This document shows, piece by piece, positions 3,677-28,161 of a DNA stretch of 64,000 bases. Both the position numbers and the translations under genes were made by a program. Numbering within the stretch: the first letter of the stretch is position 1; the number at the start of each line of letters is the position of its first letter. Origin of the DNA: Arthrobacter sp. NicSoilB4 (GTDB lineage: Bacteria; Actinomycetota; Actinomycetes; Actinomycetales; Micrococcaceae); contig NZ_AP024653.1 of the NCBI RefSeq assembly GCF_019977335.1, positions 186,001 through 250,000 on the forward strand, given 5' to 3'. The notes below the pieces were generated by a model. That model had not been told where the DNA came from and did not search any database. It saw only the letters and a program-made list of their open reading frames with translations.

Positions 3677-4747
3677 ATGATCCGGCTCCGTAAGCTGGCG
3701 CGCGCCGCATCTCTACTGACCACCCCACTAGCTCCAGAAGACATTCTGTCGCTGTTCAACCCTGTGTTTTCTGCCCGCCAACTGCGCGGCGTGGTCACCC
3801 GGGTGGTTCCAGAAACGGCCGATTCCGCCACCATTTTCTTCCGTCCCGGCCGCGGCTGGCAAGCGCACCTTGCCGGCCAGTGGGCCCGCATTGGCGTCGA
3901 GCTCGACGGCGTCCGCCACTGGCGGTCGTACTCGCTCAGCGCCCCCGCCGGCAAGGACCCGGCCATCACCGTCAGCGACATGGGCGCCGTCTCCGGGACC
4001 CTCGTGCGCAACACCAAACCCGGCGACGTGCTCTTCCTGGCGCCGCCGCAGGGCGACTTCGTCCTCCCCGAGCACCCGCGCCCCTTGCTGATGCTCACTG
4101 CAGGCAGCGGGATCACGCCGGTCATGTCCATGATCCGCACTCTCGTCCCGCACCGCCCGGACTCCGACGTCGTCCTTATCCACACAGCCCGAACCCCGGC
4201 GGACGCCATCTTCCACGAGGAACTGGCCGAACTGGCGGACCAGTTCCCCAACTTCCGCGTCATCCACTGGTTCACCGGCGCACGCGGCCGGATCGACTTC
4301 AGCTCCATTGCCGGACTCGAGCAGCTCTGCCCGGACTGGCGCCAGCGTGCAGCCTACGCGTGCGGCCCCGAGAGCTTCCTCGACGACGCCGAGGCGCTCT
4401 GGGAGGCGGAGACCGCAACCAAAGAACCTTCGGAAGCCACCCTCACCATCGAGCGCTTCAGCACCAAGCTCGCCGGCGGGGAAGGGCATGACGGCGGCCT
4501 GGTCACGTTCGAGGCGTCTGACCGCGAGGTCGAAGCCGACGGCGACACCCCGCTGCTCGACGTCGGCGAGGACGCCGGCGTCCTGATGCCCAGCGGCTGC
4601 CGCATGGGCATCTGCCACAGCTGCCTTATCCCCCTCCGGGCCGGCCAGGTCCGTGACCTGCGCACGGACGAAGTCCACGGCGAGCCCGGCCAACTAATCC
4701 AGACGTGTGTTTCGGCAGCCGCCGGACCCGTTAACCTCGACCTCTGA
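3677..4747 (+). CDS. Ferredoxin/flavodoxin reductase with C-terminal 2Fe-2S domain
   Basis: This 356-residue electron-transfer protein takes electrons from NAD(P)H through FAD to its own plant-type 2Fe-2S cluster. The FAD-binding motif RSYS is at 83-86, and the NAD-binding glycine motif is in the segment LTAGSGITPVMSM. The cluster ligands are Cys308, Cys313, Cys316 and Cys344 (C-x4-C-x2-C and a distal Cys). The arrangement matches the reductases that feed actinobacterial acyl desaturases such as mycobacterial DesA3. The desaturase begins 14 bp downstream, which strongly suggests a shared transcript and partnership. The N-terminal 35 residues are an extension before the FAD domain. The start ATG at 3677 follows a long AT-richer leader. 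Confidence 0.9.
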   Translation: MIRLRKLARAASLLTTPLAPEDILSLFNPVFSARQLRGVVTRVVPETADSATIFFRPGRGWQAHLAGQWARIGVELDGVRHWRSYSLSAPAGKDPAITVSDMGAVSGTLVRNTKPGDVLFLAPPQGDFVLPEHPRPLLMLTAGSGITPVMSMIRTLVPHRPDSDVVLIHTARTPADAIFHEELAELADQFPNFRVIHWFTGARGRIDFSSIAGLEQLCPDWRQRAAYACGPESFLDDAEALWEAETATKEPSEATLTIERFSTKLAGGEGHDGGLVTFEASDREVEADGDTPLLDVGEDAGVLMPSGCRMGICHSCLIPLRAGQVRDLRTDEVHGEPGQLIQTCVSAAAGPVNLDL

Positions 4748-18141: not shown

Positions 18142-18199
18142 TCGATTGCTCCGCAGGCGCCCTTTTGAACCCTCAAAAGGGCGCCTGCGGAGCAATCGA
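18142..18199. terminator. Perfect 27-bp bidirectional terminator
   Basis: The arms at 18142-18168 and 18173-18199 are exact complements over 27 bp with a four-base loop (ACCC). The top of the stem is CCCTTTTGA/TCAAAAGGG, so each strand carries a short T run. It lies between convergent pstB and pit and overlaps neither coding region. Confidence 0.9.
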
Positions 18200-19996: not shown

Positions 19997-20521
19997 TCAG
20001 ATGGCGGGGGAGCGGCGCTCGATGAGTACTGTGTCGCGCCACTGCCCGGTGAGCGGGCCGTGGGTCATTCTGGCAATTCGGTGCCTGCGCCCGACGACGG
20101 CGTAGCCGTTGGCAAGGTGGAGTTTGAGGCTGGCTTCGTTTTCGGGAAAGACGCTGGCCTGGATGGTCCAGATCCCGTCACGCTCCGTGGATTGCGCCAA
20201 TGCCCGCAGCAGCGCGGCGCCCAGGCCCCTCCCGCGTGCTTCGGTTGCGATGTACACAGAGTGCTCCACCACGCCGGAGTAGGCGGGGCGCGCAGGGACG
20301 GGGGAGACGGCAGCCCAGCCAAGGATTCCGCCGTCGTGTGCTTCGGCCACAAGCCGGTGGCGGGGCAGCCTCGAGGCGTTGAAACGTTCCCACTCGGGCG
20401 CCTCTGATTCGAACGTGGCGTTCCCTGTGGCGATGCCCTCGCGGTAGATCCGCTGGACGGCCGGCCAGTCGTCCTCGCGCATGGGACGGATCGTGGCAGC
20501 GGACTGTTCTGGCGCGGTCAC
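19997..20521 (-). CDS. arsN: GNAT acetyltransferase, ArsN/phosphinothricin-acetyltransferase-like
   Basis: This 174-residue GNAT enzyme closely resembles phosphinothricin N-acetyltransferases: IRPMREDDWPAVQRIYREGI at the N-terminus, acetyl-CoA loop ARGRGLGAALLRAL, and the conserved VFPENEASLKLHLANGYAVVGRR. In arsenic operons this family member is ArsN1, which acetylates and inactivates arsinothricin, the arsenic analogue of phosphinothricin. Its GTG start overlaps the arsR stop by four bases (GTGA), so it is translationally coupled to arsR, and that supports the ArsN reading. Phosphinothricin itself could be another substrate. Confidence 0.8.
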   Translation of the reverse strand: MTAPEQSAATIRPMREDDWPAVQRIYREGIATGNATFESEAPEWERFNASRLPRHRLVAEAHDGGILGWAAVSPVPARPAYSGVVEHSVYIATEARGRGLGAALLRALAQSTERDGIWTIQASVFPENEASLKLHLANGYAVVGRRHRIARMTHGPLTGQWRDTVLIERRSPAI

Positions 20522-20868
20522 AGGGTGGCCAGGAGGCCGGCCGTTTGTTCCAGGGCGCCCGGAACCAGGGAGTAATAGGCCCAGGTGCCACGTTTCTCGC
20601 GGTGCAGCAGGCCCGCGTCGACCAGGATCTTCAGATGGTGGGAGACCGTGGGCTGGCCCAGGTCCAGCGGTTCGGTGAGGTCACACACGCAGGATTCGCC
20701 TGTTGCTTCTGCCTTGACGATGGAGAGCAGCCGCAGCCGGTTGGGATCGGCCAGCGCCTTGAAGACCAAGGCCTTCTGCTTTGCCTCCTCAGCGCCCAGG
20801 GCGGGCGCGCCCGCCGGGGCGCAGCACGATTCATCCGTGGCCGGCTCAAGTGTGGGCAGCGAGTTCAT
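20518..20868 (-). CDS. arsR: ArsR-family arsenite-responsive repressor
   Basis: This is a 116-residue winged-helix repressor. The HTH is QPTVSHHLKILVDAGLLHREKRGTWAYYSL. Candidate As(III) ligands are the vicinal pair Cys15-Cys16 (DESCCAP) in the N-terminal arm and Cys60/Cys62 (ESCVCDL) at the start of the HTH. C. glutamicum ArsR uses a similar N-terminal Cys pair plus a third Cys. It is downstream of the aquaporin gene on the same strand but has its own promoter-like region at 20870-20905 with an ATTGA-N6-TCAAT palindrome. A possible -10 (CATAAT) is only eight bases from the ATG, so the mRNA may be nearly leaderless. Confidence 0.92.
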   Translation of the reverse strand: MNSLPTLEPATDESCCAPAGAPALGAEEAKQKALVFKALADPNRLRLLSIVKAEATGESCVCDLTEPLDLGQPTVSHHLKILVDAGLLHREKRGTWAYYSLVPGALEQTAGLLATL

Positions 20869-20887
20869 CTACCCATTATGCCCCGAT

Positions 20888-20903
20888 ATTGACAACCATC
20901 AAT
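20888..20903 (-). promoter_or_regulatory. Candidate ArsR operator O1 at the arsR promoter
   Basis: ATTGACAACCATCAAT has half-sites ATTGA and TCAAT separated by six bases, 20-35 bp upstream of arsR. On the minus strand TTGATG followed 16 bases later by CATAAT could be the -35 and -10 of arsR, so the operator would cover the -35. Confidence 0.65.
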
Positions 20904-20946
20904 GTGTGCGCCGCGGGGGGCTGCGTCGGGAACGACCCGGCAAAAG

Positions 20947-21687
20947 CTAGGAGCGGGCCGCCGCTGAACTGCGCGGAAGAACGACGTCGTCCGCGGTGCG
21001 GGCCGCGGAGGGGAACAGGATGAGGAGGAGGCCAAGGCCTACCGCCGCGCCGACCAGTTGCGCCACAACGAATCCCGGACCGGACGCCGGGGCGATGCCC
21101 GCGAAGGTATCACTGAAGATGCGACCCACCGTTACGGCCGGGTTCGCGAACGACGTCGAGGATGTGAACCAGTACGCGGCCCCGATGTAGGCGCCCACCG
21201 CGGGCGCGGTGAGGGCGCCGCGGGAGGTGGCGGCCAGGGCGAAGATCAGCAGGATGAGCCCTGCGGTGGCAATGACCTCACCGAACAGGTGGCCCGCGGT
21301 TGCGCGCTCTTTCGTGGAGATGGAGGTTCCCACGTCGAACATGGCGTTCGCGACCACGCTGCCGCTCACGGCCCCCAAGGTCTGGGCAGCCACATACGTG
21401 CCGAGCTCCGTGAGGGACAGGCCTGTGCCGCTGCGCCGGCCCATGATCCAGTCGGCGAGTGAGACCGCGGGATTGAAGTGCGCGCCGCTCACGGGGCCCA
21501 ATACAAGAATCAGCACCGTCAGGCCCAGCACCGTGGCAGTGCTGTTCTGGAGCAGCTGCAGGCCTAGGTCATTGGGGGAGAGCTGCTGTGCCGCGATCCC
21601 GGAACCGACCACAATGGTCACGAGCAAGCCGGTGCCGAGCAGTTCAGCGACGGCACGACGCCACAGCGGTGGCTGGATGGAAGTCAT
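20947..21687 (-). CDS. MIP-family aquaporin/aquaglyceroporin (AqpS-like)
   Basis: This 246-residue channel has six helices and two NPA half-helices: HFNPAVSLADW in the first half and SFANPAVTVGRIF in the second. It lies inside the arsenic island, divergent from the ArsR-ArsC fusion. In rhizobial ars operons AqpS lets arsenite made by arsenate reduction leave the cell down its gradient. No ArsB or Acr3 pump is present here, so the same job is a reasonable inference. Only 45 bp separate its ATG from the fusion's ATG. It ends 78 bp before arsR. Confidence 0.9.
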   Translation of the reverse strand: MTSIQPPLWRRAVAELLGTGLLVTIVVGSGIAAQQLSPNDLGLQLLQNSTATVLGLTVLILVLGPVSGAHFNPAVSLADWIMGRRSGTGLSLTELGTYVAAQTLGAVSGSVVANAMFDVGTSISTKERATAGHLFGEVIATAGLILLIFALAATSRGALTAPAVGAYIGAAYWFTSSTSFANPAVTVGRIFSDTFAGIAPASGPGFVVAQLVGAAVGLGLLLILFPSAARTADDVVLPRSSAAARS

Positions 21688-21718
21688 GGGAACAGCTTGA
21701 CCGAAAGAATTAACTCAG

Positions 21719-21728
21719 TCAAAATTGA
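21719..21728. promoter_or_regulatory. Palindrome between divergent aquaporin and ArsR-ArsC fusion
   Basis: TCAAAATTGA (TCAA-AA-TTGA) lies in the 45-bp gap between the two starts. Another ATTGA follows at 21738-21742. It is a plausible binding site for the ArsR domain of the fusion, but it does not follow the N6 spacing of the other ars sites. Confidence 0.4.
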
Positions 21729-21732
21729 ACCA

Positions 21733-22407
21733 ATGAATATTGAGGCAGCGGACGGTTTTCGGGCGCGGGTAGCCAAACATGCGGCCTTGGCCGATCCTGC
21801 GCGGCTGCGCATCGTTGATCTGCTGACCCTGGGAGACTTCTCCCCGACGGAGCTGCAGGCCGGGTTGGGGATGCCGTCAAACCTGCTGTCCCATCATCTG
21901 CGCACGCTGGAAGAGGCGGGGCTGGCAACCCGCCACCGCTCCGAGGCTGACCGGCGCCGCAGCTACATCCGGCTGGCTCCCGGCGCCCTGGAGGGCCTGG
22001 TGCCCGGGGCCGAACACGAGGCCCGGCGCGTATTGTTCGTCTGCACGCGAAACAGTGCACGGTCCCAGCTTGCCGTCGCACTCTGGCGGCAGGTCAGCGA
22101 GATCCCCTCGACTTCCGCGGGCACCCACCCCGCGGACCGCATCGCCGCCGGCGCCATCGACGTCGCCCGCCGCCACGGCGTCGCCCTCGCGGACCTTCCC
22201 CCGCGCAGGCTGGATGAAGTGGCGGACGATGAAGACTTCGTTGTAACCGTGTGCGATAACGCCCACGAGGAAATCCCCAAAGTGGGAGGGATTCACTGGT
22301 CGATTCCGGATCCGCTCCGGCTAAACACCGAGGACGCCTTCGAGGGCGCCTTCGCCGATATCGCCCGCCGCATCGGCGACCTGGCGCCCCGCCTGCACGC
22401 CGCCTAG
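21733..22407 (+). CDS. ArsR-ArsC fusion: winged-helix regulator plus arsenate reductase
   Basis: This protein of 224 residues joins two arsenic functions. Residues 1-90 are an ArsR-type winged helix (LLSHHLRTLEEAGLATRHRS) that contains no cysteine, so it lacks the usual As(III) ligands. From residue 98 a low-molecular-weight phosphatase-type arsenate reductase follows, with the P-loop Cys104-x5-Arg110 (CTRNSAR), a second Cys174 (TVCDNA) and the acid loop SIPDP. The start at 21733 is preferred over TTG at 21697, because the upstream part would bury the palindrome. Such fusions are known in actinobacterial arsenic clusters. It is divergent from the aquaporin. Confidence 0.88.
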   Translation: MNIEAADGFRARVAKHAALADPARLRIVDLLTLGDFSPTELQAGLGMPSNLLSHHLRTLEEAGLATRHRSEADRRRSYIRLAPGALEGLVPGAEHEARRVLFVCTRNSARSQLAVALWRQVSEIPSTSAGTHPADRIAAGAIDVARRHGVALADLPPRRLDEVADDEDFVVTVCDNAHEEIPKVGGIHWSIPDPLRLNTEDAFEGAFADIARRIGDLAPRLHAA

Positions 22408-22426
22408 AACCCAAAAGCCCGCTTAT

Positions 22427-22479
22427 ATTGACAAGTGTCGATCTTTCGTTCGATACTACAGACATCGATAGACATCAAT
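22427..22479 (+). promoter_or_regulatory. arsC promoter with two candidate ArsR operators
   Basis: TTGACA (22428-22433) and GATACT (22452-22457) form a near-consensus -35/-10 pair with 18-bp spacing. ATTGA-N6-TCGAT (22427-22442) covers the -35, and ATCGA-N6-TCAAT (22464-22479) lies just downstream of the -10. Both share the spacing of the site in front of arsR. They would give ArsR control of the arsC-trxB-microprotein-flavoprotein series. Confidence 0.7.
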
Positions 22480-22556
22480 GTCCAGTCGGTGGAAGTGGTA
22501 CGGGGACGAAAATCTCAGAAAAAACCGATCCACCTAACTGATCCAGGAGTAACCCC

Positions 22557-22979
22557 GTGAGCACCGAAACCGCCAAGAAGCCGTCCGTCCTGTTCGTCTG
22601 CGTCCACAACGCCGGCCGCTCCCAGATGGCCGCCGCGTTCCTCACCACGCTGGGCGAGGGCCGCATCGAGGTCCGTTCCGCCGGCTCGCAGCCCGCCGAC
22701 AAGGTCAACCCGGCCGCCGTCGAGGCCATGGCCGAACTCGGAATCGACATGTCGGCGGAGATCCCCAAGATCCTCACCACCGAGGCCGTCAAGGAATCCG
22801 ACGTCGTCATCACCATGGGCTGCGGCGATACCTGCCCGATCTTCCCGGGCAAGCGCTACGAGGACTGGGAACTCGAGGACCCGGCCGGCCAGGGCGTCGA
22901 GTCCGTCCGCCCCATCCGCGACGACATCAAGGCCCGCATCGAGGACCTGATCGCGTCCCTCACGCCCGCCGCCAGGTAG
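22557..22979 (+). CDS. arsC: Arsenate reductase, thioredoxin-coupled type
   Basis: This 140-residue low-molecular-weight phosphatase-fold enzyme reduces arsenate to arsenite. The P-loop is VCVHNAGRS with Cys15 and Arg21. Further cysteines Cys89 and Cys93 (GCGDTCP) can form the relay disulfide reduced by thioredoxin. The acidic loop is EDWELEDPAGQG. The GTG start at 22557 follows a 150-bp leader with promoter and operators. trxB begins 10 bp after its stop, supplying the reducing system. Confidence 0.94.
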   Translation: MSTETAKKPSVLFVCVHNAGRSQMAAAFLTTLGEGRIEVRSAGSQPADKVNPAAVEAMAELGIDMSAEIPKILTTEAVKESDVVITMGCGDTCPIFPGKRYEDWELEDPAGQGVESVRPIRDDIKARIEDLIASLTPAAR

Positions 22980-22989
22980 GAGCCCGGCC

Positions 22990-23964
22990 ATGACTGAACA
23001 GCTGATCATCATCGGGTCCGGCCCCGCCGGCTACACTGCCGCGATCTACGCCGCCCGCGCCGGGCTCAAACCGCTCGTCATCGCCGGAGCCGTCACCGCG
23101 GGAGGCGCCCTGATGAACACCACCGAAGTGGAAAACTTCCCCGGCTTCCCCGGCGGCATCCAGGGTCCCGAGCTCATGGACGGGCTCCAGCAGCAGGCCG
23201 AGAAGTTCGGTGCGCAGGTGGTGTTCGACGACGTCACGGAGGTGACGCTCACCGGTCACCTCAAGCGCGTGGTCACCGGCGCCGGCGAGACCCACCAGGC
23301 GCCCGCCGTCATCCTCGCCACCGGCTCCGCCTACAAGGAACTCGGGCTGCCCGAAGAGAAAACGTTCAGCGGCCACGGGCTCTCCTGGTGCGCCACCTGC
23401 GACGGGTTCTTCTTCCGCGACCAGGACATCATCGTCGTCGGCGGCGGGGACTCGGCCATGGAGGAGGCAACCTTCCTGACCCGCTTCGGAAAGACCGTCA
23501 CCGTGGTGGTCCGCAAGGGCGAGCTGCGCGCATCCCGGATCATGGCCCAGCGCGCCAAGGACAACCCCAAGATCAGCTTCGCGTGGAACTCCGCCGTCAC
23601 GGCTATCCACGGCAACGGCAAAGTCACCGGCGTCACCCTGACCGACACCCGCACCGGCGAAACCAGGGAACACGCCGCCACCGGCATCTTCGTCGCGATC
23701 GGCCACGTCCCGCGCACGGAGCTGCTCCACGGCCAGGTGGACCTCGACGCCGAGGGCTACATCAAGGTGGACTCACCCACCACCGTCACCAACCGCTCCG
23801 GCGTCTTCGCCTGTGGGGACGCCGTGGACCACCGCTACCGGCAGGCCATCACCGCCGCCGGGACCGGCTGCGCCGCCGCCCTCGACGCCGAACGCTACCT
23901 CGCCGCGCTGGACGACGCCGACAGCATCGCCACCGCCCTGGTCGAGGACCCCACCCACGCCTGA
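22990..23964 (+). CDS. trxB: Thioredoxin reductase
   Basis: This 324-residue flavoprotein passes electrons from NADPH to thioredoxin. The FAD motif GSGPAG is at 9-14, the redox-active CATC at 134-137, the NADPH motif VVGGGDSAMEEA follows, and the C-terminal FAD segment GVFACGDAVDHRYRQAITAAGTG is intact. It lies 10 bp after arsC and so is a dedicated reductase for the arsenate reductase relay. No thioredoxin gene lies beside it. It differs from the housekeeping trxB only by context. Confidence 0.94.
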   Translation: MTEQLIIIGSGPAGYTAAIYAARAGLKPLVIAGAVTAGGALMNTTEVENFPGFPGGIQGPELMDGLQQQAEKFGAQVVFDDVTEVTLTGHLKRVVTGAGETHQAPAVILATGSAYKELGLPEEKTFSGHGLSWCATCDGFFFRDQDIIVVGGGDSAMEEATFLTRFGKTVTVVVRKGELRASRIMAQRAKDNPKISFAWNSAVTAIHGNGKVTGVTLTDTRTGETREHAATGIFVAIGHVPRTELLHGQVDLDAEGYIKVDSPTTVTNRSGVFACGDAVDHRYRQAITAAGTGCAAALDAERYLAALDDADSIATALVEDPTHA

Positions 23965-23992
23965 CCCCCGCGGAAGAGAGGAGGTGAGCTGA

Positions 23993-24073
23993 ATGGATAC
24001 CCACTGCTGCACCGACGCGATCTGCACCGACACCAGCCAGGACTGTTGCGACGACGACCTGGACTGCTGCTGA
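23993..24073 (+). CDS. 26-residue Cys/Asp-rich microprotein
   Basis: This very short ORF has a strong ribosome-binding site (GGAGG, about eight bases before ATG 23993). It encodes 26 residues ending in TGA at 24071-24073. Seven residues are Cys (5, 6, 11, 18, 19, 25, 26), arranged as three vicinal CC pairs plus one single Cys, and eight are Asp. His4 lies beside the first pair. There is no hydrophobic core, so the peptide would fold only around a bound metal or metalloid. It sits 28 bp after trxB and before the ArsO-like gene in the arsenic series, with a hairpin after it. Binding or carrying As(III) is an inference by analogy with the CC pairs of ArsD. It was not recognised as a known family. 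Confidence 0.7.
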   Translation: MDTHCCTDAICTDTSQDCCDDDLDCC

Positions 24074-24083
24074 TCACCTCCTC

Positions 24084-24118
24084 CGTGCCTGCCGGTCCCA
24101 CAAGGGCCGGCAGGCACG
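24084..24118 (+). terminator. Hairpin after the microprotein gene
   Basis: CGTGCCTGCCGG (24084-24095) pairs with CCGGCAGGCACG (24107-24118), extended by CCC/GGG around a short ACAA loop with one bulged T. No T run follows, so it may act as an attenuator or an RNA-stability element that favours the upstream genes rather than a full terminator. Confidence 0.5.
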
Positions 24119-24160
24119 CCGCAATGAACCGCTACCCCACCGGATGAAACAGAGGAAACC

Positions 24161-25546
24161 ATGGCTGTGACCACCAACCTTCCCGTAGCTGTCATTGGCG
24201 CCGGGCCCGTCGGCCTCGCCGCAGCGGCGCACCTGCTCGAGCGCGGGATCGAGCCGCTGATCTTCGAAGCCGGCCCGTCCGCGGGGGCCGCCATCGAGCA
24301 GTGGCGCCACATCCGGCTGTTCTCCCCCTGGCGGTACAACCTCGATGCCGCCGCAGTGCGCCTGCTTGAAGCCGACGGCTGGGAATCGCCCAGGCCCACG
24401 GCCCTGCCCTACGGCGGGGAACTCATCGACAATTACCTCGCCCCGCTGGCTGCGCTCCCGGCCATCAGCTCGCGGCTGCAGACCGGTGCCAAAGTTATCG
24501 CCGTGACCCGAGCCGGCATGGACAAGACCCACACGCGCAACCGCGAGACCACCCCGTTCACCGTCCGGGTAGAGCATGGGGACGAAGAGGTCCGCGACCA
24601 CGCTGTGGCAGGAGTCCTTGACGCCTCCGGCACCTGGTCCACCCGCAACCCGCTGGGAACCTCGGGGCTTCCGGCCATCGGCGAAGACTCTGCCGCGGAC
24701 CGGATCTCCGCGCCGCTCCCGGACGTCACCGGCCGTGACCGCACCGCGTTTGCCGGCCGCCGTGTCCTGGTCGTCGGTGCCGGCCACTCCGCCGCCAACA
24801 CCCTGATCAGCCTCGCCGACCTGGCCAAGCAAGAACCGGGCACCCGGATCCTGTGGGCGGTCCGCGGACCGTCCGCCGAGAAGGTTTACGGTGGCGGCGA
24901 CGCCGACGGGCTGCCCGCCCGCGGCCAGCTCGGTGCCCGCCTGCGCCGCCTGGTCGACGCCGGGACCATCGAACTGCACACCGGATTCGGCATCGGCTCG
25001 CTGAAATCCCTCGCCTCGCACGTGACCGTCGAATCCGTGGACGGCCGGACCCTCGACGCCGACGTCGTCGTTCCGTGCACTGGTTTCCGCCCGGATCTGG
25101 ATATCCTGCGTGAACTCCGGCTGAACCTGGACCCTGCCGTCGAAGCACCTGTGGAGCTCGGCCCGCTGATCGACCCTGAATTCCATTCCTGCGGCACCGT
25201 CCCCCCTCACGGCGCGGCTCTGCTGGCCCAACCGGACAATGACTTTTACATCGTGGGCATGAAGTCCTACGGCCGGGCGCCCACCTTCCTGCTGGCCACC
25301 GGCTACGAACAAGTCCGCTCCGTCGCGGCCGCCCTCGCCGGCGACCGCGAGGCCGCGGACACTGTCCAGCTCGAACTGCCGGAGACCGGCGTCTGCTCCT
25401 CGGATAGCGGCACCAGCTGCGACGTACCGGCGTCCGCCGCCGCGGCTTCAGCCGCCGAGACCTCCGGGGGCTGCTGCGCCGCTCCCGAACCGGTCCTCGT
25501 CGGGTTCCCCACCGGGCTTGCCCACGGCCGGTCCGGCGAAAACTGA
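24161..25546 (+). CDS. ArsO-like flavin-dependent monooxygenase/oxidoreductase
   Basis: This 461-residue flavoprotein has the FAD motif VIGAGPVGLAAAAHLLERG near the N-terminus and a second dinucleotide motif VLVVGAGHSAANT mid-protein. That is the layout of flavin monooxygenases, and proteins of this type in ars operons are called ArsO. The last 55 residues form a separate tail with GVCSSDSGTSC and SGGCCAAP, giving four cysteines including one CC pair. This tail resembles the Cys-rich N-terminus of ArsR and the microprotein. The substrate is unknown. It is downstream of trxB and the microprotein, with 87 bp and a hairpin between. Confidence 0.8.
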   Translation: MAVTTNLPVAVIGAGPVGLAAAAHLLERGIEPLIFEAGPSAGAAIEQWRHIRLFSPWRYNLDAAAVRLLEADGWESPRPTALPYGGELIDNYLAPLAALPAISSRLQTGAKVIAVTRAGMDKTHTRNRETTPFTVRVEHGDEEVRDHAVAGVLDASGTWSTRNPLGTSGLPAIGEDSAADRISAPLPDVTGRDRTAFAGRRVLVVGAGHSAANTLISLADLAKQEPGTRILWAVRGPSAEKVYGGGDADGLPARGQLGARLRRLVDAGTIELHTGFGIGSLKSLASHVTVESVDGRTLDADVVVPCTGFRPDLDILRELRLNLDPAVEAPVELGPLIDPEFHSCGTVPPHGAALLAQPDNDFYIVGMKSYGRAPTFLLATGYEQVRSVAAALAGDREAADTVQLELPETGVCSSDSGTSCDVPASAAAASAAETSGGCCAAPEPVLVGFPTGLAHGRSGEN

Positions 25547-25655
25547 CCATCCGGGGCAGGGCGACGTGGTTCGCACCTCCGACGTCGTTGTCGACACGGG
25601 GTGCGGCGGCCCCGCCCGGTCAGGAAGCCGATTCATTTAGGGAAGACTTAAGCGC

Positions 25656-26078
25656 ATGACTGAAACCACGACAAAGCCCAGCGTCCTGTTCGTCTGCAGC
25701 AAGAACGGCGGGAAGTCCCAGCTCGCCGCCGGTCTGATGAGACGGCTCGCAAATGGGACGGTCACGGTGCACTCGGCCGGGACCAAGCCCGGCACGTCGC
25801 TGAACCCCCAGTCCGTGGACTCGCTGGCGGAACTCGGCGTCGATATCGCCGGCGAACACCCGAAACCGGTCACGGACGAAGAGCTGAACGCTGCCGACGT
25901 CGTGGTAGTCCTGGGCAGCGAGGCAAAAGTCGAACCCCGCGAGGGCAAGCGGGTCGAGGTCTGGGCTACGGACGAGCCCTCTGAACGCGGCATCGAAGGC
26001 ATGGAACGCATGCGCCTGATGCGGAACGACATCAAGGCTCGCGTCGAGAAGCTGTACGCGGAGCTCGCCGGGAACTGA
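25656..26078 (+). CDS. arsC2: Arsenate reductase, mycothiol-coupled type (arsenate-mycothiol transferase)
   Basis: This 140-residue protein has the same fold as ArsC, but the P-loop is CSKNGGKSQ, with Cys14-x5-Lys20 instead of Arg. Cys14 is the only cysteine, so there is no internal disulfide relay. Both features, and the segments VHSAGTKPG and ERGIEGMERMRLMRNDI, match the C. glutamicum ArsC1/ArsC2 enzymes that form an arseno-mycothiol adduct for mycoredoxin. It therefore complements the thioredoxin-type arsC at 22557. It has a separate 109-bp leader after the flavoprotein. Confidence 0.85.
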   Translation: MTETTTKPSVLFVCSKNGGKSQLAAGLMRRLANGTVTVHSAGTKPGTSLNPQSVDSLAELGVDIAGEHPKPVTDEELNAADVVVVLGSEAKVEPREGKRVEVWATDEPSERGIEGMERMRLMRNDIKARVEKLYAELAGN

Positions 26079-26434
26079 CCGTAGCCTGGGGGCTGCGGTC
26101 CGGGGCGCTTTGACACCGACACGCCGCGGACGCCTGACCCGGGGTCCGGAATTGGGTCCAAAGGTGCCCCGGACGGCGGGCGGTGGCCTCCGGCGGCTGC
26201 CAATACGCACAGCTTGCCCGGCAACCAGCTGACAGCCGGGCCAAAAAGGGCAGAAAAATGGTGCCGAACCGGATACGCCTCTCGGCGGTAGGCCGCTCTA
26301 GGCGGCTAAATGTTGAAGCCCGGGGGTTTCGCGGCTCGGCACCGCTTTTAGTTTTCTACTTGGGTGGGGACAAGTCAACATTGACAGTCCGCACGTGGCA
26401 TGCCTACCGGGGGTGCGGCGGCGTGCCATAAGGC
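26079..26434. other. Gene-free stretch after arsC2 with one palindrome
   Basis: No convincing gene was found in these 356 bp. The region is more AT-rich near its right half (26260-26400). It contains the inverted repeat GTCAACATTGAC at 26374-26385, which resembles the TCAA/TTGA palindrome near 21719. It may be a degenerate remnant or a regulatory region. The possible 82-codon frame at 26183 lacks coding character. Confidence 0.5.
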
Positions 26435-27091
26435 TCAGTCCAGTTCGCCCAGCCGCCACGCGTTGGCGGCGTGCTCGAGGTCTTCTGCGGTCTTCACCAG
26501 GAGGTGCGAATTGCGCGTGAGCTTGCTCGCGTGGCTTTCGTTGCCGTGCTCGGCTCCGTCCGCGAGGGTGGCCTGGCCCAGCGCCACCACGCGGCAGAAC
26601 GCGGCGGAACGTTCCAGCGCGACGTCGAACTCGCCGTCGAACGCGCCCGAGAGGATGGCGTCCGCCATCGATTTCATCTCGTCCGCTCCGGGAGGCTCGG
26701 CGGCGCCGGCCACCACGTGCGAGACCTGGGCGGTGTCCTTGCCGGCCCTGAAGTACACGGAGATCCGCTCGGGATCCTGGATCGTAGCGGCCCGGAGGGC
26801 ATACAGGCGCCAGAGGGCTCCCGGGAGCGAGCGTGCCGGGCTTTCTGCCCACATTTCGGCGATGGCCTCCAGTCCTTGTTCATCGGCGAGCTTCACGAGC
26901 CGTTTGGTGACGACCGGGTCATCGCTGTCGCGTCCGCGGCGCACGAGTGCCTGTGCGGCGAGGTGGGCGGCCTCGGAGATGCGGGCAGGATCGGCTCCGC
27001 CCGCGAAGGGCTCAAAGTCGATGGGGGCGAAGGCCTTCGGCTTGTGGTGCCGGTGCGGTCCGGGGGCGCTGGATCCTGCTTGCTCGCTCAT
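26435..27091 (-). CDS. Conserved hypothetical protein
   Basis: This is a 218-residue soluble protein with a His-rich N-terminus (PGPHRHHKPKAF) followed by DFEPFAGGADPARISEAAHLAA and a long helical body containing SLPGALWRLYALRAATI. I do not recognise a named family. Homologues of this general form seem to be present in other actinobacteria as unannotated proteins, but this is from memory. No metal motif, signal peptide or membrane segment is apparent. It is alone, leftward, and separated from the tRNA gene by 235 bp. Confidence 0.7.
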   Translation of the reverse strand: MSEQAGSSAPGPHRHHKPKAFAPIDFEPFAGGADPARISEAAHLAAQALVRRGRDSDDPVVTKRLVKLADEQGLEAIAEMWAESPARSLPGALWRLYALRAATIQDPERISVYFRAGKDTAQVSHVVAGAAEPPGADEMKSMADAILSGAFDGEFDVALERSAAFCRVVALGQATLADGAEHGNESHASKLTRNSHLLVKTAEDLEHAANAWRLGELD

Positions 27092-27326
27092 GCCACCACG
27101 CTACTCCAGTGCTGTCGGGGAATCGAGCGTGCGGCCCGCAGGGGCGGACCCCGGCCTGGCCGTCGCGTGACCGGCACACCGGGGCCCGTCCGACGCACGA
27201 CGGCGGCGTCCCCGCCGGTGCGAAAAACCGGGCGCGGTCTGGGGTACAGTATTAACGTCCAGAAATGGACTGGGCTGATCGGCCTTGAAGCAGCGGATTC
27301 ATCCGCCGTTTCGGGGCATTCGGCTG

Positions 27327-27399
27327 GGGCCTTTAGCTCAGTTGGTAGAGCATCGGACTTTTAATCCGTGGGTCGTGGGTTCGATCCCCACAGGGCCCA
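27327..27399 (+). tRNA. tRNA-Lys (anticodon TTT)
   Basis: This 73-nt cloverleaf has acceptor arms GGGCCTT and AGGGCCC, D arm GCTC..GAGC, anticodon loop CTTTTAA, T arm GTGGG-TTCGATC-CCCAC and discriminator A. CCA is not encoded. The tRNA is followed by a strong terminator at 27422. Confidence 0.97.
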
Positions 27400-27421
27400 C
27401 TCTTTTAGCGAAGAGTGGGAA

Positions 27422-27459
27422 AACCCCGGCATCCTGGCGACAGGGTGCCGGGGTTTTTT
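27422..27459 (+). terminator. Rho-independent terminator after tRNA-Lys
   Basis: A 15-bp stem (27422-27436 with 27441-27455, one G-T wobble) encloses a GCGA loop and is followed by a run of Ts to 27459. It sits 22 bp after the mature tRNA 3' end. Confidence 0.95.
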
Positions 27460-27702
27460 GTGTGCGTTTCTTAACGGTTCTCGAGTATGGACTGGGCGTT
27501 CCGTGCGGACATCTTGGAGACATTGCACCGGGTGGCCTCCAGACCGGGAGCCTGGGCGGACTCAAGTGCGCGCGATACTTCGTCCAGCCGGTCTAACGGC
27601 GAAGACCCGTCGCCCTGCTTTGAACCTTCCTTCAGGGTGCCGGGCCCTCATGCTAGCTTTGCCCCAACAGTGCGCGAGCACAGTACCTATCAGGGGGACA
27701 GC

Positions 27703-28161
27703 ATGGTCAATGTGACAGTGGACCCGGACATCTTTGACGCCCAGGGAGAGGCTTACCCGGACCCGGAGGAAGGCTGGAACGGGCCGTCCCCCGTCTTCCT
27801 CGTCCAGTCCGACCAGACGGAACAAGCCGCCCAGGCACTCCACAGAGCGATAATCCGGTGCAAGTTCGTTGGCACCAGCGGCCGAGAACTAACACTGGAG
27901 GAGGACTCCGCGGGAGAGGAGTACACCGCCAACTGGTATTCGCCCGTCTACCTTACCGACGCGGGCCCCATGGCCTGCCTGGACACACAAGGTGAATTGC
28001 CGCGAGCCATGGCGGAGGCCATGGTCCGCATCCTTGTGGAGGAAGTGACCGCCCAGGGAATTGACGCCTACCTGACAACGCCGCCTTTAAGCACTGATGA
28101 GGACACGCAGCAGTGGCAATGGCCGATCTGGGAGCCGGACGAGGGGGTAAAGGGCGTCTGA
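27703..28161 (+). CDS. Hypothetical protein
   Basis: This 152-residue acidic protein (NVTVDPDIFDAQGEAYPDPEEGW..) was not recognised. The start ATG at 27703 is preceded by AGGGGGAC. The frame is open upstream to 27487, but that part has poor coding character and lies over the region just after the tRNA terminator. There is no signal peptide or membrane helix. It contains two cysteines and a Trp-rich C-terminus (QWQWPIWEPDEG). It lies alone between tRNA-Lys and the VOC gene. Confidence 0.6.
   Translation: MVNVTVDPDIFDAQGEAYPDPEEGWNGPSPVFLVQSDQTEQAAQALHRAIIRCKFVGTSGRELTLEEDSAGEEYTANWYSPVYLTDAGPMACLDTQGELPRAMAEAMVRILVEEVTAQGIDAYLTTPPLSTDEDTQQWQWPIWEPDEGVKGV

Follow-up and report, generated by a model that had tools for sequence, protein, structure and literature searches.

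Short cysteine-rich frame in the ars island

Few resistance operons have been studied as thoroughly as the ars operons, and the locus analysed here raises the question of whether one of them holds a further cistron of only 26 codons and, if so, what its product would do. The frame (microORF) lies between trxB and an ArsO-like gene in the window, which is the whole 64,000-nucleotide stretch of DNA that was analysed (Table 1). Translation confirmed the composition given in an earlier note on this DNA, that is, 26 residues with seven Cys, arranged as three pairs (5-6, 18-19, 25-26) and one single Cys (C11), together with eight Asp, and the strong Shine-Dalgarno sequence (SD) described there was found 5 nt from the ATG, the sequence immediately 5' of the microORF being AGAGAGGAGGTGAGC. 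A scan for SD-led ORFs 9-45 aa long that hold 4 or more Cys and 20% Cys or more retrieved the microORF alone in the 64-kb window; in 60 copies of the window simulated with a first-order Markov model, the mean was 0.08 such ORFs per copy (0.017 with at least 6 Cys). The Cys pairs that the earlier note had pointed out elsewhere in the island, ESCCAP in ArsR and GGCCAAP in the ArsO-like protein, are both present. The ArsO-like protein scored 57.8 bits against the NCBIfam ArsO model NF040505, below its cut-off of 425, and its relatives are spread widely in the class, with matches at E<=1e-60 in 88 of 296 genomes. The aquaglyceroporin is presumably AqpS-like, judged by its position, and the ArsR-ArsC fusion gene, for which TTG is the first listed start, is transcribed away from it.

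Table 1. Features of the microORF and of the surrounding ars island in the window.
Feature	Position	Strand	Basis or detail
ArsR with N-terminal CC pair	20518-20868	-	profile scan
Aquaglyceroporin (MIP)	20947-21687	-	profile scan
ArsR-ArsC (LMWPc) fusion	21697-22407	+	profile scan
arsC, LMW-phosphatase-type arsenate reductase-like	22557-22979	+	profile scans
trxB, thioredoxin-disulfide reductase	22990-23964	+	TIGR01292, 380.1 bits (cut-off 343.45)
SD of the microORF, GGAGGTGA	23980-23987	+	5 nt before ATG
microORF, 26 aa, MDTHCCTDAICTDTSQDCCDDDLDCC, TGA stop	23993-24073	+	translation and homologues
TCACCTCCTCC, immediately 3' of the stop codon, complement of the microORF SD	24074-24084	+	pairing in the window
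Strong GC-rich hairpin in the gap between microORF and ArsO-like gene	24084-24118	+	folding; arms 24084-24098 and 24104-24118
Separate SD-like AGAGGAA of the arsO-like gene	24151-24157	+	read from sequence
ArsO-like FAD/NAD(P) oxidoreductase, Cys-containing C-tail (GVCSSDSGTSCDVP...GGCCAAPEP)	24161-25546	+	profile scans
Second arsC-like gene	25656-26078	+	profile scans

Distribution of the microORF

With the ArsO-like protein as bait, we took the best 80 of 226 relatives from genome contigs (L017-L096, 907,428 bases), which span Arthrobacter, Pseudarthrobacter and Paenarthrobacter. Among these best 80, an intact microORF homologue was found directly upstream of the arsO-like gene in 41 loci, and the same scan over all 907,428 bases gave merely two such ORFs elsewhere, both on the opposite strand. 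The remaining 39 loci have no intact copy, near relatives among them, with a decayed frame at the site in L023, and the microORF is dispensable. On the ArsO tree its presence needs 15 changes against 28.6 with shuffled labels; presence is clustered on the tree, yet the ORF was often lost or moved and near relatives differ. The gene before the intact ORF is trxB in 27 and arsC in 14 of the 41 loci, and in the loci without an intact ORF it is trxB in 20, arsC in 12 and another gene in 7, with no clear association of the ORF with trxB (27 with, 20 without; arsC 14 and 12). The position between trxB and the ArsO-like gene, as claimed earlier, is thus true of the window and frequent elsewhere, but arsC takes the place of trxB in those 14 loci.

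A blastn search of plasmids led to five records from Arthrobacter and Paenarthrobacter that have a homologous ORF at this position, with no annotation of it in any of the five, so that the earlier remark that gene callers miss the frame holds for these five. In one plasmid record (TC1, CP000476.1; L012:4606-6135), the start of the ArsO-like "putative Secreted protein" ABM10838.1 falls inside the microORF (ATG 4595); the annotated start looks too far upstream, and an ArsO start at 4747 would fit the alignment.

Profile A1 matched 46 of 206 genus genomes at E<=0.05 (49 places, some of them pieces of one ORF), which is a lower bound because a true copy in G002 was missed (MSTGCCDDECCEDGQDCC in L133), and on inspection the ORF was present in the ars cluster in all 46, in one of them fused to ArsO. 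At the family level 30 of 395 genomes matched at E<=1, and the 15 matches outside the genus (L111, L112, L114-L126) have neither an ars gene nor such an ORF. A phylum draw of 346 genomes returned the window itself and one weak unrelated match (L186, a basic 41-aa frame with no ars gene), a negative that is no proof of absence with an incomplete profile, and an order-level search with the 47-row profile A3 gave three weak matches, none with a Cys-rich SD-led ORF, a result of little weight since this profile missed even the window. Among the class-level ArsO-like loci L130-L159 the peptide was present in L130 (the window) and L133 (same genus) only, and ORFs in L156 and L157 were judged unrelated. 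A pattern search of viral contigs and a PDB sequence search with the peptide gave no match, and a text search of a limited literature collection with three peptide cores found no paper. Some handles or accessions may share one assembly (L003 is L018, and L046 is probably L182), and the counts are not additive.

Peptide pattern and selection

The 53 distinct peptides are 12-30 aa long (17-26 aa but for two), with a net charge of -2 to -8, and include MTTGCCGDSGCCDDDQDCC, MDTGCCTDTGCC and MDPGCCTDTGCCTDTGCCDDNCCDDGQDCC. CC-x4-C occurs anywhere in 49 of the 53 and is absent from four, as compared with a mean of 25.8 and a maximum of 36 in 500 CC-block shuffles; 47 begin with M-x3-CC-x4-C, and 52 end in Cys-Cys-stop. 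Four further distinct peptides fit the pattern too, among them MTTGCCGDSGCCGDSGCCDDDQDCC with a repeated unit. Composition over 50 distinct ORFs was 32% Cys and 26.5% Asp with few hydrophobic residues, and 50 of the 51 distinct sequences of upstream region plus ORF retain the SD motif G[AG]GGTG[AG]. In L108 and L200 the peptides are lengthened by repeats of CC units (CCTDTG twice and GDSGCC twice, respectively), which suggests that tandem duplication can alter how many CC pairs a peptide has.

The earlier note had let its reading depend on conserved Cys spacing and on synonymous-site constraint in related genomes. The spacing proved conserved in the 49 peptides above, and for the second point the data indicate purifying selection, which is clear at the Cys residues and weak at the rest. 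A comparison of 20 independent closest pairs showed the amino acid changed at 5 of 125 Cys positions versus 45 of 260 others (p=1.5e-4). Synonymous changes exceeded the neutral share (26 of 76; p=0.0009 at kappa 1, 0.047 at kappa 3), the excess being weaker for non-Cys codons alone (p=0.011 and 0.118, respectively), and dN/dS, pooled over related pairs, was 0.35, or 0.415 when the Cys codons were left out. The TGC:TGT ratio of Cys codons was 304:3 in microORFs and 456:34 in arsO (p=3.8e-5, related sequences included), and selection at the codon or RNA level is a possible explanation of this stronger bias. Stop codons were TAA in 34, TGA in 24 and TAG in 7 of 65 loci, and a selenocysteine or readthrough reading was ruled out because the stops vary. 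We take the microORF to be a genuine gene that is not annotated in the records examined, and its product is probably a real, very small arsenic-handling protein. A conserved ars cistron thus appears to escape annotation through its extreme shortness.

A probable arsenite site of the ArsD type in a bare peptide

According to PMC4562236, Cys12, Cys13 and Cys18 form the arsenite site of ArsD and are required for its chaperone function, and ArsD passes As(III) to ArsA according to PMC6514093. The earlier comparison of the Cys pairs with ArsD was borne out at the level of spacing: in L187 and L188, ArsD genes from within the same bacterial family encode MCCSTGVCGTD and LCCNTGVCGPD, with Cys-pair tails, and both arsenite sites (CCSTGVC, CCNTGVC) are spaced as CC-x4-C. 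The peptide resembles ArsD in this spacing, in its Cys pairs near the C-terminus and in its ars context, but the ArsD model PF06953 has 123 positions, and the peptide has 12-30 aa and no Pfam match. Scanning of the 26- and 30-aa peptides with hmmscan gave 0 Pfam families at E<=0.001, PF06953 included, and no NCBIfam family at the same threshold; a search of the peptide's own genome for PF06953 gave no match at E<=1e-5. We therefore rejected the identification of the peptide as ArsD, despite the shared CC-x4-C. Metallothioneins and phytochelatins are Cys-rich unfolded metal(loid)-binding peptides, and phytochelatins are made by an enzyme, not by the ribosome. The peptide is likewise Cys-rich and putatively unfolded, and it differs from bacterial metallothionein in that no curated family model was matched by the two scanned peptides.

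Because the peptide has the ArsD spacing without the ArsD domain, its likeliest role would be to hold arsenite by three thiolates as a buffer or carrier, and on the evidence of sequence we consider it probable that the microORF is a small ars-operon gene for a ribosomally made arsenite-thiolate peptide, acting as a buffer or shuttle. The putative specificity for arsenic rests on gene context. Arsenite would release ArsR and the operon would be transcribed, and the strong SD would then lead to abundant synthesis of an acidic, unfolded short peptide, in which the thiolates of Cys5-Cys6-x4-Cys11 may hold one As(III) with the spacing of the ArsD metallochaperone and the terminal Cys pair may supply further thiols. 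The peptide would buffer the As(III) made by ArsC until its exit via the aquaporin channel, or alternatively would hand it by thiol exchange to another protein; where the ArsO-like gene is present, the Cys tail of its product is a candidate acceptor, not a required one. TrxB may keep the peptide thiols reduced, and the hairpin would fix the 3' end of the upstream transcript or make it more stable. If translated and arsenite-binding, the product would be a minimal natural arsenic-binding peptide; it would show how few residues make a selective site, with a bearing on biosensors and remediation, and would prompt a rescan of other metal operons for peptides of fewer than 30 residues.

More tentatively, and with some doubt, we suggest that the peptide might be a genetically encoded counterpart of phytochelatins, namely an ArsD site that ribosomes produce at a high rate from an ars operon as a bare peptide with no folded domain. 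At mostly 17-26 aa it would rank among the smallest carriers dedicated to arsenite, and in part of the lineage it would pass As(III) on to the ArsO-like protein at its Cys tail. In L046 the ORF stop is read as Trp and the frame runs into ArsO (509 aa), a natural in-frame fusion, which is also present in L182, probably the same genome; in L047, a relative of L046, the ORF is separate from arsO. The fusion would be a trace of peptide-to-ArsO handover if the microORF product were such a phytochelatin counterpart. The Cys tail of ArsO did not track with the peptide, as a CC after residue 400 was found in 43 of 47 proteins with the ORF and in 38 of 39 without.

Hairpins next to the microORF and the leader-peptide alternative

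The main rival, and a serious one, is that the microORF encodes a Cys-codon leader peptide acting in cis, in which ribosome pausing at the Cys codons, when free cysteine is arsenite-bound or scarce, would alter access to a hairpin or SD and so raise the next gene; we regard it as unlikely. Short Cys-codon-rich ORFs lie upstream of another gene in 41 of the 80 loci, and since the Cys codons are their best-conserved part and a hairpin is nearly always next, the leader stays a serious rival; the weak constraint at non-Cys positions is what a Cys-codon sensor would also show. Of 41 loci with the ORF, 37 have a structure of -15 kcal/mol or below in the gap that separates it from arsO, and of 32 loci without the ORF, 7 have one between the upstream gene and arsO (p=1.9e-9), as an attenuator also predicts; this comparison covered 73 loci, with L046 and six others that have neither trxB nor arsC upstream left out of the 80, and the gap start was guessed in L023, the locus with the decayed frame. 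In the window, moreover, the stretch behind the stop codon pairs with the microORF SD at -19.5 kcal/mol (shuffle p 0.01).

Several observations speak against a leader. The hairpins fall into two types of unrelated sequence, present in 22 and 14 loci, besides others; four of the 41 ORF loci have no strong one, and seven loci have one without the ORF (one of the seven with a guessed gap). Across loci the pairing between SD and post-stop sequence was -18.3 kcal/mol against -17.5 kcal/mol in shuffles, with p<=0.05 in 6 of 51, about what C-rich composition gives, and pairing of the 5' hairpin arm with the ORF had a mean z of -0.32, with p<=0.05 in 3 of 46 (script detection of the arms was poor in a few loci, such as L043 and L054). 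No antiterminator pairing was found, and a conserved-structure attenuator was rejected because the hairpins are unrelated and the pairing is no better than in shuffles in most loci. The window hairpin is followed by no T-run, and a riboswitch was dismissed, as positions 20000-28000 gave no Rfam match except a tRNA. The acidic composition of the peptide is also maintained. The opposite proposal, that the hairpin is independent of the ORF, was too strong: the two are separable, yet strongly associated. We read the hairpin as a likely cistron divider.

The parallels in the literature are partial. Polycysteine short ORFs are described as attenuators for cysteine genes in mycobacteria (Canestrari et al. 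2020, as cited in PMC13236596 and PMC9094748), a precedent that speaks for a leader, and they share with the microORF a short Cys-rich frame upstream of another gene, but they are titled leaderless, whereas the microORF has a strong SD, sits late in its operon (in L200 as the last gene) and is acidic outside its Cys residues, and we found no conserved attenuator pairing for it. The ars1 operon of Bacillus CDB3 has, as our loci do, an intercistronic hairpin, which in that operon reduces downstream expression, but the available part of PMC4562236 describes no Cys-rich ORF there. Should the microORF be a leader after all, it would be one of a kind for which we found no description in ars operons within the limited literature collection searched.

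Loci without arsO bear directly on this alternative. The ArsO-like neighbour claimed earlier was found in the 41 loci, but three genomes keep the ORF without it. Among the 46 genus genomes, no ArsO-like gene lies beside the ORF in L169, L178 and L200, and a search of these three genomes (G022, G151 and G152, 99-100% complete) at E<=1e-60 found none anywhere, G002 being positive in the same run. An arsO remnant is kept in L178, and the tail of the next arsC-like gene in both L169 and L178, from which we infer that arsO was deleted in these two loci. In L200 the ORF comes after trxB, and directly behind the ORF lies a long palindrome that has a T-rich tail and that we read by eye as an intrinsic terminator, so that the ORF would be the last gene before it; no further operon gene follows. 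The ORF, being kept without an ArsO-like gene, is therefore not merely part of arsO, and L200 and the three genomes lower the odds of a leader and raise those of an arsenite-holding peptide.

In addition, a MITE-like long palindrome of the AACTAGGTAGCAGCAGGTGTCGTT... type recurs between the ORF or trxB and arsO (L025, L027, L030-L033, L035, L036, L066, L084 and others), and other loci have in its place a CCTGCCGG...CCGGCAGG hairpin.

Other explanations

A binder of thiophilic metals in general (antimony, copper, zinc, cadmium), that is, a metallothionein-like sponge in an ars operon with no arsenic specificity, appears quite improbable. Metallothionein-like peptides are in general Cys/Asp-rich and have no fold, and the peptide resembles them in this, but the ORF lies in an ars cluster in all 46 genus genomes that the profile retrieved, and the spacing CC-x4-C is of the arsenite type. 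We give very little credence to a small thiol electron carrier, in which TrxB would reduce the Cys pairs and the peptide would reduce ArsC in thioredoxin's stead: trxB is directly upstream in 27 of 41 ORF loci and no thioredoxin was found among the eight window genes scanned, but arsC, not trxB, is upstream in the other 14, the ORF is missing from 20 of 47 loci with trxB upstream, and the conserved spacing differs from CxxC, the thioredoxin motif. That the microORF is a chance frame and no gene, for which its shortness and modest non-Cys constraint could be cited, is scarcely credible given that frame, SD, Cys pattern and position are conserved in dozens of genomes.

Two minor features have lower coordinates than the genes of Table 1. 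A GNAT acetyltransferase gene adjoining ArsR (19997-20521, minus strand) has ArsN1 family A as its closest model (122.2 bits against a cut-off of 170) and is a possible arsinothricin resistance gene. A perfect inverted repeat of 27 nt with a loop of 4 nt was observed at 18142-18199.
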